Below are positions 4,711 to 19,719 of a DNA stretch of 20,801 nucleotides, piece by piece. Under the pieces are notes generated by a model that was given only the letters and a program-made list of their open reading frames with translations, searched no databases and had not been told where the DNA came from. How positions within the stretch are numbered: the first letter of the stretch is position 1; each line of letters starts with the position of its first letter. Source of the DNA: a virus; the IMG/VR virus record IMGVR_UViG_3300047678_000845, positions 1 through 20,801 of that record, one strand, 5' to 3'. Both the position numbers and the translations under genes were made by a program.

Positions 4711-7700
4711 TTAGGCCAGGGCCGTTATGGTGATGGAGCCGTTCTTGGCGCCGCCGATGACGGTGACGCCGCCGGTCGCGCCGGTGGTGTTGGTGTCGCC
4801 GCCGGTCGCGTTTCCGCCCGCGCCGTTGGCGCTGGGGCCGCCGCCGGCGCCGCCGTGGGCGGTGAGCGCGGGCGAGGTGACCGTGGAATTGCCGCCGGCG
4901 GTTCCGGGCGTGGACGACGGGTTGTCGCTGCCGTGCAGCCCGAGGCTGTAGGCGATGTTGGTCGTTCCGGGCGTCACCGTGATCGTCTTGGTCGCCGTCC
5001 CGCCCTTGCCGCCCTTGAAGGTCAGGCTCGGCTCGCCGTGCAGGATGGCGTACTCCCCGCCCCCGTCCGCGCCGGTCAGGGTGATGACGGCGTTGCCATA
5101 GCTGCCCGCCGGCAGGGTGATGTTCCCCGCGCCGCTGACGGATGTGGAGAGGATCACCGTACCTGGGGTGATCGAGGTGTTGCCGGCCGAATAGCTGCCC
5201 ACGGTCAGGGCCGAGGCGATCTGGTAGAGGGTCCCCACCACGCCGCTGACCAGATAGGCCACCGCGACGTCGTAATTCTGGCCCGAGGCGACCGAGGTGA
5301 TGTTGTAGAGCGTGGTGTCGATCGAATGCAGGCCGGCGGAGACCCAGGTCGCCGATCCGGTCACCCGATAGTAGAAGATCACCCCCGTGGCCGAGGGATT
5401 GTCGGTGACGCCGGTGATCTGGATCGCCGGCACCGACTGGCCCATGTTGGCCAGGGTCACGGCGGTCGCGGTCCAGGTCGAGGCGCCCGGCGGGGCCGCG
5501 CCGATCGGGACCGGGGTGAAGGGATAGGCCACGCAGTCCGAGAGCGGCGTCACCCCCTGGCCCCACTGATTGAAGCTCTGGAACTTGACGTAGCAGACCG
5601 TGCCGACGTTCGGGGCCAGATAGGGCAGATCGAAGATGGCGTCGTCCAGCCGGACGAAGGGCGCGCCAGCCGAATGCGCCGCGATCGGGGTGTTGAGGTA
5701 GCCGCGCCGGATGTAGGTCGTCAGGCTGTAGCGGCTGGGGTTGGTCAGGGTCGCGATGGAGAAGCAGACCAGCTCATTGTCCAAGAGGCACAGGGTCGCC
5801 CCATTGTCCGCCGCCGCGTCGGCCGCCGAACTCAGGCCGCCGCCCGAGGCGCCCAGGTCCACCGCCAGGGTGTCGGTGGTGTCCGGGTCCGCGCCCGAGG
5901 CATAGCTGGCCGTGGCCGCGCCGTAGCGGGCGGGCGCGTCGATGGTCCCCACCTGGGCGTAGTCGGTCCCGCCGTCGACGCTGACCCAGACGTAGGCGCC
6001 GCCCCAGTTGGGTCCGCCGGCGACCGCGGCCCAGGCCGACGATCCGGCGGTGTTCAGCACCGCGGGCGGGTTGAAGATCAGCGGCCCGGCGATGGCGCTG
6101 GTGGTCTGGGCGTAGACGCCGGGCGCGAGGCCCTGGCGCACGGCCCACTGGCTGAGGTTCAGGGCGTTGCCGGCGGTCGCGGTCCAGCTGAGCGCGCCCG
6201 TGTCGCTGAGCGCGGCGACGCCGGCGTAAAGCGTCGTGGCGGCGGGAACCTGAACGGTCAGCGCGACCTGCCAGATCCCGGCGACCAGGGTGGTGTTCAG
6301 GCTGGCCGAGACCACGACCCCGGTCCCTTGCGCGGTTCCGGGGGTCAGGATCACGCCGGCGTTGGTGTCGACCTCGATATATCCGCCGTTGCCGGCGCCA
6401 TCATTGACGAACACCCGCGCGTTCTTGTGCGCGTTCTTCTGGATGCAGACGGCGAAGGTGTAGTTAAGCCCGGCGAAGGCGCTGAACGATTGGCTGACCT
6501 GATGGGTCCCCGTGCTGGCCGTGGTGGTCAGGGCGTCGGCGGTGGTCAGGCCATACTGGTCGTTGGCCACATTGCCCGTGATCGTGCAGAGCGATTTCGT
6601 ATAGGCGCCGTTGGTCTGGTCCCCGCTCCAGAGCAGCAGATTGGCCTCGACCCCGCCGGGATCGGTGCTCTGGTTGACCTGAAGGCCGCCGCCGGTCTGC
6701 ATGGCGTAGAGCGGCGTGCTCGAGACGCCGATCGGGAAGTCCTCGGCCGTGATCGACAGGCCGTACTGCTCGTCCTCGTCGATCTGGATGATCCGCACGG
6801 GATAGGCGGAAAGGCCCAGCCCCGCGTCGGTCAGCTCCAGGATGTCGCCCGGCTCCAGGATGGCGAACATCCAGCCGAGTTTGAACTTGTACTGGGCGCG
6901 GATGTAGAGCGTGCGCTGAAGCCAGAGTTGAGAGGCGATCGCCGCGATATTCGGATCGCAGATCATATGGACCGTGTCGGGGTCCTTCCGCCGCATGCCG
7001 TACTGGGCGACGTTGGCCGCGTCGGACGCCAGCGCGATCGCCATATTGTACTGGTTGGTTCGGTCGAGGAACTCCAGCTGAACGACGTTATAGGCGTCGC
7101 TCTGGTCCATGATATCGACCAGCAGGGGCGCGTCGCCCTCTGACTGGGGAATGAAATCGTCGTCGTCCAGCGAATAGATGACGGTGTTGTTCGGCGCGTA
7201 GGTCTTGCCGTTGCCGGTCAGCGCCGTGTCGCCGTAGGGGATGAACTTCAGCAACCCCTCGGACCAGACGCAGGTCGAGTTGGTGGCGAGCAGCAGCTCG
7301 GTCAGGAAGTCCGAGGCCGAGCGCTGGGCGTCGATCACCGGCGAGACCAGGAGGCCGGCGGCCAGGCAGTAGTTCTGGTACTGGGTTAGCGACCCTAGCA
7401 GCCCCGAGGCCCAGCTCGGCACGCCATAGCGGCCGTTGGTGAAGAAGTCGGTGACCACGAGCGAGGGATCCGCGTCGGCGCTGGACCCGACCGCGAAGCT
7501 GGAGGTGCGCGCCACCTCGAAACTGTGGTTGGGCGGCGAGGCCGAGCTGTCCAGGGCGTAGTTGGCGGCGTAGGCGATGGCGAGGCCGGAATAGCCGATC
7601 GCCTGGCTGGGATAGTTGGACGTCAGGTACGACCAGACGGCCTGGCCGATCGCGCCGGTCGCCAGGCTCAGCCCGGCCTGGGCCAGGGCCGTGGTCACGC

Positions 7701-7986
7701 CGTTGGTGTAGATTTTGGAGTCGACATAGACCGTCTTGATCGAGTCGATCGGGCCTTCGCAGATCCCCAGGATCAGGGACGCCGAATAGCTGTAGCCCGT
7801 GGTGGTCGAGCCGCCCTTCCCGCTCGCCGCCTTCTGGGCGGTCGATTTGAAGTTGTTGTACCAGACCAGATTGCACTTGCATCGGTACGTGCCCCAGCCG
7901 ACCGGGATATTGACCCCCAGCGAGGACGTCTGGACCTGGATGCCGGCGTAGCGGGTGATGGTGTTGGAGGCGGAACGACCGGCCAT
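4711..7986 (-). CDS. Large tail-tip/host-specificity protein (GTA g15- and lambda J-like)
   Basis: This 1091-aa protein is the last of the tail-tip quartet and probably forms the baseplate hub and receptor-binding tip. The N-terminal 420 residues carry the phage-tail-3/tip domain typical of this family (ILGICEGPIDSIKTVYVDSK; later GDILELTDAG and YGLSITAEDF). Residues about 445-625 look like an inserted carbohydrate-binding beta-sandwich (motifs NLLLWSGDQTNGAY and HQVSQSF). The tip fold resumes near 640-830 (YIRRGYLNTPIAAHSAGAPF). A fibronectin-III-like segment lies near 835-930. The last 140 residues are very rich in Gly, Thr and Asn. ATG 7984-7986 follows the NlpC gene stop by two bases. It is shorter than typical GTA g15 proteins but longer than a minimal hub. 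Confidence 0.85.
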   Translation of the reverse strand: MAGRSASNTITRYAGIQVQTSSLGVNIPVGWGTYRCKCNLVWYNNFKSTAQKAASGKGGSTTTGYSYSASLILGICEGPIDSIKTVYVDSKIYTNGVTTALAQAGLSLATGAIGQAVWSYLTSNYPSQAIGYSGLAIAYAANYALDSSASPPNHSFEVARTSSFAVGSSADADPSLVVTDFFTNGRYGVPSWASGLLGSLTQYQNYCLAAGLLVSPVIDAQRSASDFLTELLLATNSTCVWSEGLLKFIPYGDTALTGNGKTYAPNNTVIYSLDDDDFIPQSEGDAPLLVDIMDQSDAYNVVQLEFLDRTNQYNMAIALASDAANVAQYGMRRKDPDTVHMICDPNIAAIASQLWLQRTLYIRAQYKFKLGWMFAILEPGDILELTDAGLGLSAYPVRIIQIDEDEQYGLSITAEDFPIGVSSTPLYAMQTGGGLQVNQSTDPGGVEANLLLWSGDQTNGAYTKSLCTITGNVANDQYGLTTADALTTTASTGTHQVSQSFSAFAGLNYTFAVCIQKNAHKNARVFVNDGAGNGGYIEVDTNAGVILTPGTAQGTGVVVSASLNTTLVAGIWQVALTVQVPAATTLYAGVAALSDTGALSWTATAGNALNLSQWAVRQGLAPGVYAQTTSAIAGPLIFNPPAVLNTAGSSAWAAVAGGPNWGGAYVWVSVDGGTDYAQVGTIDAPARYGAATASYASGADPDTTDTLAVDLGASGGGLSSAADAAADNGATLCLLDNELVCFSIATLTNPSRYSLTTYIRRGYLNTPIAAHSAGAPFVRLDDAIFDLPYLAPNVGTVCYVKFQSFNQWGQGVTPLSDCVAYPFTPVPIGAAPPGASTWTATAVTLANMGQSVPAIQITGVTDNPSATGVIFYYRVTGSATWVSAGLHSIDTTLYNITSVASGQNYDVAVAYLVSGVVGTLYQIASALTVGSYSAGNTSITPGTVILSTSVSGAGNITLPAGSYGNAVITLTGADGGGEYAILHGEPSLTFKGGKGGTATKTITVTPGTTNIAYSLGLHGSDNPSSTPGTAGGNSTVTSPALTAHGGAGGGPSANGAGGNATGGDTNTTGATGGVTVIGGAKNGSITITALA

Positions 7987-7988
7987 TC

Positions 7989-8468
7989 TTACGTCGCCCT
8001 ATCGCTCGCTGGCGCTCGCTGCTTGAGGGCGGTCGGCCAATAGCTGAAGTACCGCCGCGGCCGGTCGAACAGGCCCAGGTCGCGGTCGAGGTCGCACAGG
8101 GTCACGCGCTGGTCTTGCACCGCCGCGTGGATTGCCTGGGGCCAGTCCAGCAGGATCGCCCCGTGGCTGAAAACGCGCCCGATCTTGACCAGGATGACAT
8201 CGCCGGGCTTGGCGTCGGCCTCGGGAATTTCGGCGGCGAAGCGCTGGACGAAGGGCAGAAAACGCTCCTCGTCCCGGTGAATGTGCCAGTCGCGCGGATA
8301 GTCGCCGGTGTCGAACCCCTCGATCAGCCCCGCGCCCGCATAGACGCCGATGAGGAACTGGGCGCAGTCCACGCCCACGCCCTTGACCCGAGCCCGATGA
8401 TGCCAGGGCGTACCGAGCCAGGTCTTGGCCTCGGCGACAAGCGCCGCGCGGGCGTCGGATTCAATCAT
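7989..8468 (-). CDS. NlpC/P60-family tail-tip peptidase (GTA g14-like)
   Basis: The product is 159 aa. The catalytic Cys is in GVGVDCAQF (residue near 34), and the catalytic His is in FSHGAIL in the second half, with a further His in AIHAAVQ. The N-terminus AKTWLGTPWHHRARVKGVG is typical of phage NlpC/P60 proteins placed before the tail-tip protein, which open peptidoglycan during DNA entry. The ATG at 8466-8468 follows one copy of the intergenic repeat. The last dozen residues (LKQRAPASDRAT) are encoded by another copy of that repeat, so the original C-terminus may have been replaced or extended. The stop lies two bases before the start of the tail-tip gene. Confidence 0.88.
   Translation of the reverse strand: MIESDARAALVAEAKTWLGTPWHHRARVKGVGVDCAQFLIGVYAGAGLIEGFDTGDYPRDWHIHRDEERFLPFVQRFAAEIPEADAKPGDVILVKIGRVFSHGAILLDWPQAIHAAVQDQRVTLCDLDRDLGLFDRPRRYFSYWPTALKQRAPASDRAT
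7992..8031 (-). repeat. Dispersed junction repeat, copy ahead of the tail-tip gene
   Basis: CCCTATCGCTCGCTGGCGCT continuing CGCTGCTTGAGGG matches the tandem array at 9391-9567 with few changes and in the same orientation. It encodes the C-terminus of the NlpC protein and ends just before the start of the 1091-aa gene. On the transcribed strand its end reads ATAGGG, which could act as a weak ribosome binding site. Confidence 0.8.
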
Positions 8469-8506
8469 CGCGCTACCGCTCGCTCTGCTCGCTGCTTGAG
8501 CGCGCT
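8467..8506 (-). repeat. Dispersed junction repeat, copy ahead of the NlpC gene
   Basis: GCTACCGCTCGCTCTGCTCG followed by CTGCTTGAG is a slightly degenerate copy of the junction repeat. It fills the whole gap between the DUF2163 gene stop and the NlpC ATG. No other ribosome binding site is visible there. Confidence 0.75.
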
Positions 8507-9384
8507 CATCCGATCGCGCCCGTGATCGCGGGCGGCGTGAACGGCTGGCCGCGGAAGTGAATGAGGTTCGACTGGGCCGAGCAGTCGGCCATGGTCAAAA
8601 GACAGCCGCGAACAGCGTGGAAGGTGTCGCCGGACGACGGCGCGAAGGGCAGCGGAAAGGCGACGGCGACATTGCCCGAGGCGTTCAGATAGGTCTGGAC
8701 GGCCCTCGAGACGCCGGCGTTGGCGCCGGTCAGGAAGGTGATCGTGCCCTTGTCGAAATAATGGTCCGGATTGGTCAGGTTGGTGTTGAACGCCAGCGTC
8801 GTCGCGCCCGAGGCGACGGTCCCGGCGACGTTCGTCGCCGTCAGGCCGCAGCTGGCGTCATAGTGGGTGTTCAGGCACCCGGCCTGGAAGACATCGGGGC
8901 CCATGTTGACGTTCAGCAGCACGGTCCAAGCGCTGACCGTCATGGTGAACTTGGCGCGGCTTACGTCCTTCAGCTGGGTCACCCGGCCGGAGAAGGCGAT
9001 GGTCGCGCCGGTGATCGGGCTGGACCAGCTGGCCAGAAAGGCGCGGTAGAGGATGACGGTGGCCCCGTCGAAGCCGCGCCCCTGCGCGAACGGGATCAAG
9101 GGCACACCGTTGACCAGATCGGCCGGCGTGGCCGAGATGGTCATGTCCAGTGTCGCGACCTCGACGCCGAGCTTGGTGCTGATCTTGCCGCGGTCGATGC
9201 CGGGGCCATAGGTGTAGGTATGGCCGTTGAAGGTGACCGGGCCGGTGAGCTGGCCGCTGTGCCAGCGGATGACGGTCCCGCCGTTCAGGGTGATGGCCCA
9301 CAGGTCCATCATCTGGAAATCCGCCCCGCTGTCGAGCAGCGCGAGCGTCGCGCCGGCGGTTCCGTTGTCGATGAGGGTTTTCAC
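8506..9384 (-). CDS. DUF2163/phage BR0599-family tail protein (GTA g13-like)
   Basis: This 292-aa protein is part of the tail-tip hub in GTAs and related siphoviruses. The family signature is at the C-terminus: GCLLTMADCSAQSN followed by HFRGQPFTPP. It has no signal peptide or membrane segment and is rich in beta strands. Paired Cys residues (QAGCLN and DASCGL, then GCLLTMADC) match the family, in which Cys residues near the C-terminus have been seen as an iron-sulphur or metal site in some GTA homologues; that part is from family knowledge and uncertain. The start is GTG 9382-9384, preceded only by AGGG from the junction repeat and an A-rich stretch. Confidence 0.88.
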   Translation of the reverse strand: MKTLIDNGTAGATLALLDSGADFQMMDLWAITLNGGTVIRWHSGQLTGPVTFNGHTYTYGPGIDRGKISTKLGVEVATLDMTISATPADLVNGVPLIPFAQGRGFDGATVILYRAFLASWSSPITGATIAFSGRVTQLKDVSRAKFTMTVSAWTVLLNVNMGPDVFQAGCLNTHYDASCGLTATNVAGTVASGATTLAFNTNLTNPDHYFDKGTITFLTGANAGVSRAVQTYLNASGNVAVAFPLPFAPSSGDTFHAVRGCLLTMADCSAQSNLIHFRGQPFTPPAITGAIG

Positions 9385-9390
9385 TTTTTA

Positions 9391-9567
9391 CGTTTCCCTA
9401 CCGCTCGCATTCGCTCGCTGCTTGAGGGGAGATTTGCGTTTCCCTACCGCTCGCTGACGCTCGCTGCTTGAGGGGTGTCTGGCGGCGCCCTATCGCTCGC
9501 TGGGGCTCGCTGCTTGAGGGGAGTCTTTGCGTCGCCCTACCGCTCGCTCGCGCTCGCTGCTTGAGGG
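9391..9567 (-). repeat. Tandem array of four 46-47 bp junction repeats
   Basis: Four units begin CCCTACCG or CCCTATCG at 9396, 9442, 9488 and 9535, spaced 46, 46 and 47 bases. Each shares two GCTCGCT words and ends GCTGCTTGAGGG. The array fills most of the 267-base gap between the DUF2460 and DUF2163 genes. I see no gene in the gap. Further single copies lie at 7992-8031 and 8467-8506. All six copies have the same orientation, and each group ends 0-10 bases before a tail gene start. Confidence 0.85.
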
Positions 9568-9583
9568 TGGCGCTCAAGCAGCG
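9555..9583. other. Perfect hairpin at the end of the junction-repeat array
   Basis: CGCTGCTTGAG at 9555-9565 pairs fully with CTCAAGCAGCG at 9573-9583 across a seven-base loop. The right arm is an inverted fragment of the junction repeat. It lies downstream of the DUF2460 stop on the transcribed strand and could stabilise that mRNA end or slow read-through into the array. No U-run follows. Confidence 0.65.
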
Positions 9584-9651
9584 CGAAGCGCGTTAGCGCA
9601 CGAAAGACTCCGCCCCCACCCCAACCCCTCCCCGCGAAAGGGCTTTGCCGG

Positions 9652-10317
9652 TCATGCCCTCAAGCTGGTGAACTTCAGGCTTCTGCCGGTCCAGAGTTGG
9701 CTGACGATCTGCTCGAAGCCGAGGTCGTCCTGGAGGAAGCGGCAGCCGAAGTAGAAGTAGCCGAACCAGGTCAGGGCGTGGCCGGCGGCCGGCGCGGTGG
9801 TGAAGGTCACCACGCCATTGGGCGAGAGGGTGTAGGCGCCGGCGGCCGAGCCGTTGTCCAGGATGGTCGGGGCGTAGACGTCGAACACCGGCTCGACGAA
9901 GCTGTTGATCGCGCGGGTGAGCTGAAAGCTTCGCGTGGCGCCATCCCCCGTCCCGAACCCTTGGGGCGCGGAGGACGCTATCTGGCAGTCGGTCGGATCG
10001 ACGAACAGGAAGGGCGCGAACTGGCCCTGACGGACGTTGAAAAACTCCCACATCGTGAACAGCTCGGCCGTGGTCGGCCGATGCCGGATCACCTCGTATC
10101 GCAGCTCGAATTGCCAGAGCGGATAGGACCAGTAGGCGGTGCGGCGCTCCCGGCCGGAGGCGGTGCGGATCACCTGGCTCGACCATTGGGGCGCCTTGAT
10201 AACCGCGACCGCCTGGCCCGGCAGAAAGGGCAGCACCGGCAGGCCCTGAACGCCCGACCAGATGCCGGTCGGCAGACCGCTTATGCTCGATGGCGGGACA
10301 TAGGGCGTGATGCTCAA
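9652..10317 (-). CDS. DUF2460-family tail protein (GTA g12-like)
   Basis: The 221-aa product is the first of the four-gene tail-tip block (distal tail or hub adaptor). Family features are FLPGQAVAVIKAPQWSSQVI near residues 30-50, the WSYPLWQFELRYEVIR core, and PFLFVDPTDC in the middle. The C-terminal half carries ATRSFQLTRAINSFVEPV and ends FLQDDLGFEQIV then RSLKFTSLRA. The start appears to be TTG 10315-10317, with AGGGGCGAGG just upstream. The next in-frame ATG codons would cut into conserved sequence. It lies 46 bases after the tape measure gene. Confidence 0.85.
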   Translation of the reverse strand: MSITPYVPPSSISGLPTGIWSGVQGLPVLPFLPGQAVAVIKAPQWSSQVIRTASGRERRTAYWSYPLWQFELRYEVIRHRPTTAELFTMWEFFNVRQGQFAPFLFVDPTDCQIASSAPQGFGTGDGATRSFQLTRAINSFVEPVFDVYAPTILDNGSAAGAYTLSPNGVVTFTTAPAAGHALTWFGYFYFGCRFLQDDLGFEQIVSQLWTGRSLKFTSLRA

Positions 10318-18088: not shown

Positions 18089-18095
18089 TCAGGGC
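18082..18095. other. Palindrome shared by two convergent stop codons
   Basis: GCCCTGATCAGGGC is a perfect 14-base palindrome centred on TGA|TCA, the stop of the plus-strand secreted-protein gene and of the minus-strand portal gene. As RNA it is too tight for a loop, so a terminator role is doubtful, but it marks a very compact junction. Confidence 0.6.
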
Positions 18096-19465
18096 GGCGT
18101 CGCATTGGCTGCCGTCGATGTCGCTATCGACGGGGATGTCGGGTCGAGGCTGACCGCGCCCTGCGCGCCGTAAATCCGGGCCTTGGCGCCCTGCCCGTCC
18201 GGCAGTGGCCCCTCGCCACGTCTCGCGCGCACCTCGTCGATCGTCGCCGAACCGTTGCGGAGCGACACATCGTCGATGTCCGCCTGGGCCTTGGGATCGA
18301 CCGACGGCGCGTCATTCCAAGCGAACTCGAGGTCACGCGCGCCCTGCTCGTCCTGGATAACCCCGTCGATCAGCCGCTTGGCCCACAGCTTGATCGGCTG
18401 CAATCCCTCCTCCAACCCACGATCCTGATCCTCGCCGGCGGTGCCGCGGTTCATCTGCCGGACGAACGGCGTGGGCGGCAGGCTGAAGGCGAAGGCGACC
18501 AGCCGCGCCAGCCATTCATCGAAGTCATCCTTGATCGGCGCGTCCTTGAACGCCTGGTAGCGGGTCCCGGCTGGCACCCACAGCAACTTGGCCTGTTCCG
18601 CGGTCTGGCCCGACAAGCGCGCGTCGAGCCAGGCCTGCATGTCGCGAATCTGATCCGGGCTCCAGCCTTCCGGGCCGTTCAACAGACCAGCCGGGGTGTT
18701 GCCTTCGGTGAAATAAGCCAGTTGGCTCGCCTGGCGGCGCATGGCGGTGTTGATCGTGACGATGATCTGCTCGACGGGCGAGAAGCCGTAATTGTGGTTC
18801 GGCCGAGGGTTGCGCGGCGCGTAGATGAGGTCGTCGTTCGTCAGATTAGCCCAGGCGACACCCTTGATCACCTGCTGGAAGGCGATCTCGCCTGGTCCGC
18901 GTGGCCGCCGCCCGGTTTCGTCCACCATGGGATGGATGGTGTCGCCGGGGATGATATCGAGCCCGATCAAGGCCCCGCCCCGACTTCGGCGCCGCTCGAA
19001 GGCCGGCGCGTCCAGCACCAGAAGGTCCTCCAGCGCGAGGCGTAGCCAGGTGGCGAAGGGCGTGGCGCCATCGGGCTTTCGCCAGAATCCCTCCAAGGCC
19101 GCGATCCGCGGATCGGCGCCGCCCGCGCCCACCGAGCCGTCGCCGCCGATCCAGGCCGAGTTGCGCGGCTTGATCCGCCAATCCAGCCGCTCGATCTGAT
19201 CCTTGCGGGTCTCGATCGCCAGCCGCACCAACTCGACATTGCTGAAGGCGCGAAGCTGGGCAAAGCCGAACGGCTCATAGGCGCGTGGCCGGATAACGGT
19301 ATTGATACCGACGGGAAAGTCCCACACCCGCACCGGCTCCGGCGCCGCGGGCGCCAGGGGCAGACCCGGACCGAAGGCGCCCCAGTTGGAGGCGAACTGG
19401 CCGCTGAGCGGGCCGCCCTGGACCTGATAGCTGAGCGAGGCGCGAATACCGCCGGCAGGAGGCAT
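18089..19465 (-). CDS. Portal protein
   Basis: The 458-aa product shows the phage portal pattern: VRLAIETRKDQIERLDWRIK, LALEDLLVLDAPAFER, DLIYAPRNPRPNHNYGFSPV, EQIIVTINTAMRRQASQLAY, then FTEGNTPAGLL, and the clip/crown part FDEWLARLVAFAFSLPPTPF. It forms the dodecameric DNA gate at the head vertex. ATG 19463-19465 with CGGAGT upstream is preferred; the open frame continues to 19597 through a hairpin-rich leader that does not look coding. The terminase normally just upstream is absent from the adjacent 1.3 kb. Confidence 0.88.
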   Translation of the reverse strand: MPPAGGIRASLSYQVQGGPLSGQFASNWGAFGPGLPLAPAAPEPVRVWDFPVGINTVIRPRAYEPFGFAQLRAFSNVELVRLAIETRKDQIERLDWRIKPRNSAWIGGDGSVGAGGADPRIAALEGFWRKPDGATPFATWLRLALEDLLVLDAPAFERRRSRGGALIGLDIIPGDTIHPMVDETGRRPRGPGEIAFQQVIKGVAWANLTNDDLIYAPRNPRPNHNYGFSPVEQIIVTINTAMRRQASQLAYFTEGNTPAGLLNGPEGWSPDQIRDMQAWLDARLSGQTAEQAKLLWVPAGTRYQAFKDAPIKDDFDEWLARLVAFAFSLPPTPFVRQMNRGTAGEDQDRGLEEGLQPIKLWAKRLIDGVIQDEQGARDLEFAWNDAPSVDPKAQADIDDVSLRNGSATIDEVRARRGEGPLPDGQGAKARIYGAQGAVSLDPTSPSIATSTAANATPP

Positions 19466-19494
19466 GGACGAAACTCCGGTCTGGCGGAAAAGAA

Positions 19495-19521
19495 GCGCCC
19501 CGCCGGGGCGTGGCGGGGCGC
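19495..19521. other. Perfect hairpin in the portal leader
   Basis: GCGCCCCGCC at 19495-19504 pairs with GGCGGGGCGC at 19512-19521 over a seven-base loop. It lies about 30 bases upstream of the portal start. It may be part of a terminator for the upstream genes or a structured leader. There is no U-run on the minus strand. Confidence 0.6.
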
Positions 19522-19524
19522 TCG

Positions 19525-19568
19525 CGCCAGGTCGGCCGAGAGAGCGTGGGGACGCCGGCCGACTGGCG
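19525..19568. other. Second long hairpin in the 254-base gap before the portal gene
   Basis: CGCCAGGTCGGCC at 19525-19537 pairs with GGCCGACTGGCG at 19557-19568 with a single bulged G, across a 19-base loop. Together with the next hairpin it isolates the portal operon from the membrane-protein gene. The rest of the gap (19569-19719) shows no gene or clear promoter to me. Confidence 0.6.
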
Positions 19569-19719
19569 GTGTGGATCGGCGGTATGAGCCGACACACGCC
19601 CTCGTCTCACAACGATAGGGCGGATCGAAGTTAATTCGATGACAGGTTCGGTATTATGGCGCAAGCTCCGGAAGGGGGCCGGCGTGAGTAGGTGGGCGGT
19701 GGTGGCCGCGCTCCTAATA

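Follow-up and report, generated by a model that had tools for sequence, protein, structure and literature searches.

The repeats that precede the tail-tip genes of this viral sequence are copies of a hairpin element that is dispersed by the dozen in the chromosomes of some Caulobacter relatives. The unit is polar and structured, and its presence at a given site differs between related genomes and between related phages. Very probably, it is a small polar dispersed hairpin element of the Caulobacterales that went into junctions of phage/GTA-like genes whose stop and start codons overlap, or nearly so, in relatives, with a later tandem duplication at one junction.

The window, that is, the whole stretch of DNA analyzed, comprises positions 1–20,801 (20,801 bp) of the IMG/VR viral record IMGVR_UViG_3300047678_000845. 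Its minus strand carries a head-tail module, in which the portal gene comes first and is followed by further head and tail genes, including DUF2460, Gp84/BR0599, NlpC/P60, and Phage-tail_3/Rcc01698 genes in the order of their RcGTA counterparts g12–g15 (Table 1). The NCBIfam scores of these four g12–g15-like proteins lie under the curated cut-offs, and the module is therefore named "phage or GTA-like", neither being chosen. An ORF on the opposite strand to the structural genes (2104–2667, +) resembles hexapeptide-repeat O-acetyltransferases, with a best, WbbJ-like match under the cut-off, and is a candidate accessory or surface-modifying gene.

Table 1. Tail-gene neighborhood and repeat copies in the window. 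Coordinates of copies give the hairpin, from outer stem to outer stem, on the minus strand for the first six.
Feature	Position	Strand	Description
Portal	18089–19597	-	
DUF2460/Rcc01695-family distal tail protein (g12-like)	9652–10317	-	upstream neighbor of the array
Gp84/BR0599 baseplate hub protein (g13-like)	8506–9384	-	GTG start
NlpC/P60 peptidase (g14-like)	7989–8468	-	C-terminus supplied by a repeat copy
Phage-tail_3/Rcc01698-like baseplate protein (g15-like)	4711–7986	-	
Hairpin element	7995–8031	-	6-bp outer stem around the inner hairpin GCGAGC-GCCA-GCGAGC; ends 8 nt ahead of the g15-like start; codes for the last NlpC residues
Hairpin element	8469–8504	-	6-bp outer stem around the inner hairpin GCGAGC-AGA-GCGAGC; adjoins the NlpC ATG; 38 nt inserted where certain phages have overlapping codons (TGATG)
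Tandem copy 4 of 4	9396–9428	-	inner hairpin loop GAAT; ends 11 nt ahead of the g13-like GTG
Tandem copy 3 of 4	9442–9474	-	inner hairpin loop GTCA
Tandem copy 2 of 4	9488–9520	-	inner hairpin loop CCCA
Tandem copy 1 of 4	9535–9567	-	inner hairpin loop GCGA
Seventh copy, opposite orientation	9570–9599	+	inner hairpin GCGC-GAA-GCGC (GCGCGAAGCGC); back to back with the array

The six same-orientation copies of the original prediction are present before the g13-, g14-, and g15-like genes, all reading with the genes, and the copy said to encode the C-terminus of the NlpC protein does so, giving ...LKQRAPASDRAT and a stop. The accompanying statement that each copy ends 0–15 bases before a start codon is correct for three copies, at distances of 8 nt (g15-like), 0 nt (g14-like), and 11 nt (g13-like), and incorrect for the remaining three tandem copies, which lie 57–150 nt upstream of the start codon; the seventh copy was absent from the prediction. 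Tandem-repeat detection finds the four-copy array with a period of 46–47 bp (3.7 copies, score 230). The 15-mer CGCTCGCTGCTTGAG occurs eight times in the window when up to three mismatches are allowed, against 1.6 expected, a count reached in none of 100 shuffles, and the window copies score E values of 1e-13 to 1e-8 with a covariance model whose seed includes them. Back-to-back pairs recur in three different phages (window 9535–9599, L178 980–1053, and L012 3737–3856), each combining a copy of the G.A type, in sense orientation before a start codon, with a copy of the perfectly paired type that follows the preceding gene in antisense orientation.

The minus-strand layout of the unit is NNNNCT-CAAGCA-(hairpin)-GNT-AGNNNN with an A-rich tail behind it. 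The outer stem is 4–10 bp long and ends in C-T/A-G, the internal loop CAAGCA/GNT is fixed, and the inner hairpin is free to vary in sequence as long as pairing is kept. All six same-strand window copies have the inner hairpin GCGAGC-loop-GCGAGC, the arms of which could pair through tandem G.A mismatches, and other copies have GCGAAGC, GCGCGAAGCGC, GGCCGAAGGCC, GGGC-loop-GCCC, or GCGAGC-NNCCGCGNN-GCGAGC. Thermodynamic folding alone is uninformative (z from -0.7 to -1.8); the evidence for structure is covariation, which is found in both helices among 45 sequences: 92.8% of the pair cells are formed, seven pairs show double changes, and double-changed cells number 54 versus 17.9 in shuffles, with 0 of 500 shuffles matching the real alignment on any of five measures. 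Covariation is far lower in slid-alignment controls. The tail of about 10 nt, common to chromosomal and viral copies, spans +4 to +13 after the TAG, where A typically makes up 30%–67% of residues versus about 20%, and ends abruptly at +14. Hairpin and tail together form a unit of about 46–54 bp, in agreement with the tandem period of 46–47 bp in the window.

Stems also differ between closely placed or orthologous copies. In one phage contig (L133 4344–4430), two adjacent tandem copies have 10-bp outer stems that differ by compensated pairs, the stems in L133–L135 being CCCAGGCCCT/AGGGCCTGGG and CCCAAGGCCT/AGGCCTTGGG; these compensated differences suggest a fast, coordinated rewriting of stems. 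At the hslV-hslU junction of L253, the G.A-containing inner hairpin of the orthologous copy is swapped for the fully paired GCGCGGCTC-CGC-GAGCCGCGC between conserved flanks.

A strict pattern for the unit matches 43 of 398 genomes of the order to which a Caulobacteraceae MAG belongs, with up to 23 copies per genome, and the same pattern reversed, as a control, has no match in these 398 genomes. The covariance model, with 150 candidates scored per genome, gives minimum counts of 42–66 copies for every one of seven copy-rich genomes, at least 45 and at least 60 in two Caulobacteraceae MAGs, at least 12 in Parvularcula oceani, and at least 35 weaker matches in one further genome, as well as 0–2 matches in most genomes in which the strict pattern has none. 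The carriers that can be named are Caulobacteraceae MAGs and P. oceani. When a looser pattern was applied to 289 genomes of the class, high counts were obtained in two genomes only (39 and 13 copies), both already from that order; matches elsewhere in the class are scattered and mostly chance-like, and controls give a similar background. Outside the element-rich groups, exact matches to the minimal form GCTCAAGCAGCGAAGCGRTAGC are few and come from four genomes of the wider class (G461, G476, G554, and G585). With respect to genes, as called by a simple purpose-made gene caller, 13 chromosomal copies are sense, 18 antisense, 23 convergent, and 10 divergent; viral copies lean toward sense (26 vs. 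15). The unit is therefore a generic dispersed repeat, scattered among ordinary genes of the chromosomes in every context, and has no phage specificity; this is the very outcome that the original prediction had named as its refutation.

Sites with and without the element were compared across 22 viral loci that encode relatives of the g13-like protein at 53%–80% identity. At the g13-NlpC junction, the stop codon of one gene overlaps the start codon of the next in most relatives (TGATG, ATGA, or GTGA), and the window has TGA-GCGCGCT...AGCGCG-ATG, with 38 nt more, both flanking proteins being homologous to their ends. At the NlpC-g15 junction, the NlpC protein of most relatives ends like ...YFSFW or FTYEGW and the junction is short or overlapping; in the window, the element supplies the protein's end. 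The g12-g13 gap measures from -4 to +11 nt in most relatives versus 267 nt in the window, five elements included. Most relatives are devoid of the repeat at the g12–g15 junctions. One related phage, represented by three contigs (L133–L135), has two antisense copies at NlpC-g15, and the element is also present between comparable tail genes in L003 and L019/L178. The g12-g13 and g13-NlpC junctions accept other inserts too, given that L139 has unrelated ones at both (for example, of the TCATCCCGG...CCGGGATGAC type).

Host chromosomes offer the same contrast. At the junction named fmt-truA, most species have the genes overlapping at TGATG and four have the element (L273, L286, L290, and L291), and the junction named hslV-hslU contains it one way round in several species, reversed in L256, L257, and L270, and not at all in others; these gene names are read from flanking sequence, not from database assignment. 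Among orthologous hslV-hslU copies, those of L250 and L251 have decayed and that of L253 is coherently rewritten. In the few empty sites compared, neither a terminal TA nor a target-site duplication was identified: a duplication of at most 1 nt is possible at the BR0599-NlpC site of the window, and none is evident at fmt-truA.

Because the junctions of relatives exist without the repeat and the sequence to its left and right stays homologous, the copies are insertions and not module boundaries. The suggestion of a spreading element made in the original prediction is supported by the occupied and vacant sites of phages as well as of chromosomes. Its other suggestion, a recombination linker that would offer short homology at gene boundaries for swapping tail genes between phages, could draw on the copies at three successive window junctions and at comparable ones in L003 and L019/L178, but relatives keep the same genes adjacent and in the same order without the repeat, the homology of the gene ends is unbroken, and the unit often lies between housekeeping genes, all of which makes such a linker extremely improbable. 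Insertion of a host-type element replaces a phage-specific recombination account of the tail-gene repeats.

In the window, the next gene has the A-rich tail as its leader, and in several phages the start codon follows directly after the tail. The idea that the repeat supplies a weak ribosome binding site is weakly supported: it gains from this placement and loses from the fact that tails are about equally A-rich where no start follows. Tails in general are not rich in ribosome-binding motifs; Shine-Dalgarno-like words are clearly above the shuffled level in the viral sense-oriented subset only (11 of 26 vs. 5.0, with tandem copies not being independent), and a ribosome-binding role is thus possible in phages and not general. 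On a broader reading, the unit would be a functional RNA cassette, selected in phages, whose intercistronic hairpin and A-rich leader set the translation of the next gene or the stability of the mRNA. The sense bias of viral copies, their Shine-Dalgarno-like tails, the adjoining start codons, and the strong covariation all agree with it, and compensatory variation could also mean selection for RNA function. However, sense bias is lacking in the chromosomes, the orthologous hslV-hslU copies of L250 and L251 decay, and compensated pairs between adjacent duplicates are also expected from a mutational mechanism. Template-switch correction of quasi-palindromes can yield coordinated stem changes; as these are explicable by template switching or by RNA selection, covariation is no proof of RNA function, and we regard the cassette as unlikely.

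In three single-contig chromosomes of element-rich genomes (G365, G322, and G234), copies cluster in the half nearer dnaA (39 of 51, 36 of 42, and 49 of 55 clusters; p = 2e-4 to 2e-9, with dnaA standing in for oriC and genome lengths rounded), and density falls with distance toward the expected terminus. No significant bias with replication-fork direction is seen in these three (25/51, 15/42, and 24/55), and the fork-strand bias expected of lagging-strand transposition is accordingly absent. Such a concentration around dnaA might be expected if the units marked the origin-proximal half of the chromosome as a domain signal bound by a nucleoid or segregation protein, the phage copies being strays. 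Yet the element is missing from most Caulobacterales sampled and shows no preferred orientation with respect to the fork, and persistence near conserved genes or a higher dosage would give an identical gradient, so that a domain signal seems quite improbable; conserved gene content near the origin could be the source of the gradient.

As to what moves the element, a Y1 transposase of the RAYT kind (Y1_Tnp, PF01797) is lacking in 17 of the 18 element-rich genomes, and the one match is weak (23.4 bits). Reverse transcriptase (PF00078), an idea raised by the A-rich tail, is undetected in 12 of the 18, and a resident enzyme of this type is not required as the mover. Since neither a transposase for the element (PF01797 searched) nor, at the few sites compared, a target-site duplication was identified, "mobile" is used here on the strength of presence or absence at sites and of copy number. 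For the preferred reading, a dispersed hairpin element of the Caulobacterales, the following course may be proposed. The element inserts as additional DNA, here at tail-gene junctions, which are presumably the places that tolerate insertions in tightly packed phage genes, and tandem duplication at one junction would come afterwards. Once inserted, its tail may provide the next gene with a leader, and the element itself may turn into coding sequence. Copying would take place at the DNA level, probably via a single-stranded hairpin, and the stems might stay paired through template-switch correction, selection, or both.

It is tempting to go further and assign the element to an undescribed class of mobile hairpins that has no RAYT and mostly no detectable reverse transcriptase, rewrites its stems in a coordinated manner, concentrates at the origin, and is carried by phages between Caulobacterales, a proposal that is tentative and at present rather doubtful. 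If true, it may point to a new, replication-linked spread of short palindromes. How short palindromic repeats spread without a recognized transposase is the open question addressed here, and the element offers a clean system for it, with a defined unit, filled and empty sites (fmt-truA, hslV-hslU, and phages), compensatory variation within genomes, and an origin-centered distribution. For the phages, the consequence is that dispersed repeats of the host are acquired at gene junctions, altering a protein C-terminus and breaking stop/start overlaps.

The repeats have no match in Rfam (whole window, and relaxed on 7900–9700) and no convincing DNA match among annotated phages and plasmids, and a literature search by exact sequence and topic found no description of the element, its coverage leaving out most subscription journals, so that novelty is provisional. 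Intrinsic terminators share a G+C-rich stem-loop between genes and are rejected because the hairpin is followed by A-rich rather than T-rich sequence, and in the other direction the T-rich part precedes the hairpin. The CIR intergenic repeats of Caulobacter and Brucella, as far as the account in PMC2229807 of Chen and Shapiro (2003) describes them, are about 110 bp long and two-armed, with a conserved GANTC. Intergenic location, RNA-like secondary structure, and an alphaproteobacterial host are shared with them; identity is rejected on that description, the present element being about 46–54 bp, single-armed, and without a conserved GANTC. Small MITEs (RUP, ERIC/IRU, and Correia/NEMIS; reviewed in PMC2229807) and the Rickettsia RPE are likewise non-autonomous, dispersed palindromic insertions that are found at gene ends and can become coding, and the covarying outer stem of 4–10 bp corresponds to their terminal inverted repeats, but the Caulobacterales element is much shorter, and neither a terminal TA nor a target-site duplication could be recognized at the few empty sites compared.

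In its behavior the element resembles a REP or a very small MITE. REP/REPIN sequences, which are accompanied by RAYTs, are also hairpin units of tens of bp, present in dozens of copies, mostly intergenic, and arranged in tandem or inverted (PMC2817692, PMC3116915, PMC3733652). The element has the short palindromic unit and the many intergenic copies of a REP, together with tandem and back-to-back arrangements and a GTAG-like end (GGTAG), so that it might be taken for one of the REP families mobilized by RAYT (TnpA_REP) transposases. The 5' foot of the hairpin has neither a GTAG nor a CGTC tag, however; GNTAG sits 3' of the inner hairpin, with its AG paired in the outer stem, and the single weak PF01797 match in 18 element-rich genomes largely refutes a resident RAYT as the mover, leaving membership of that system very unlikely. 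The Caulobacterales element also departs from REP/RAYT in its asymmetric fixed internal loop, its freely varying helices, and its one-sided A-rich tail. The element is a REP-like dispersed hairpin family of the Caulobacterales, probably new to the literature, that now also resides inside phage tail modules.
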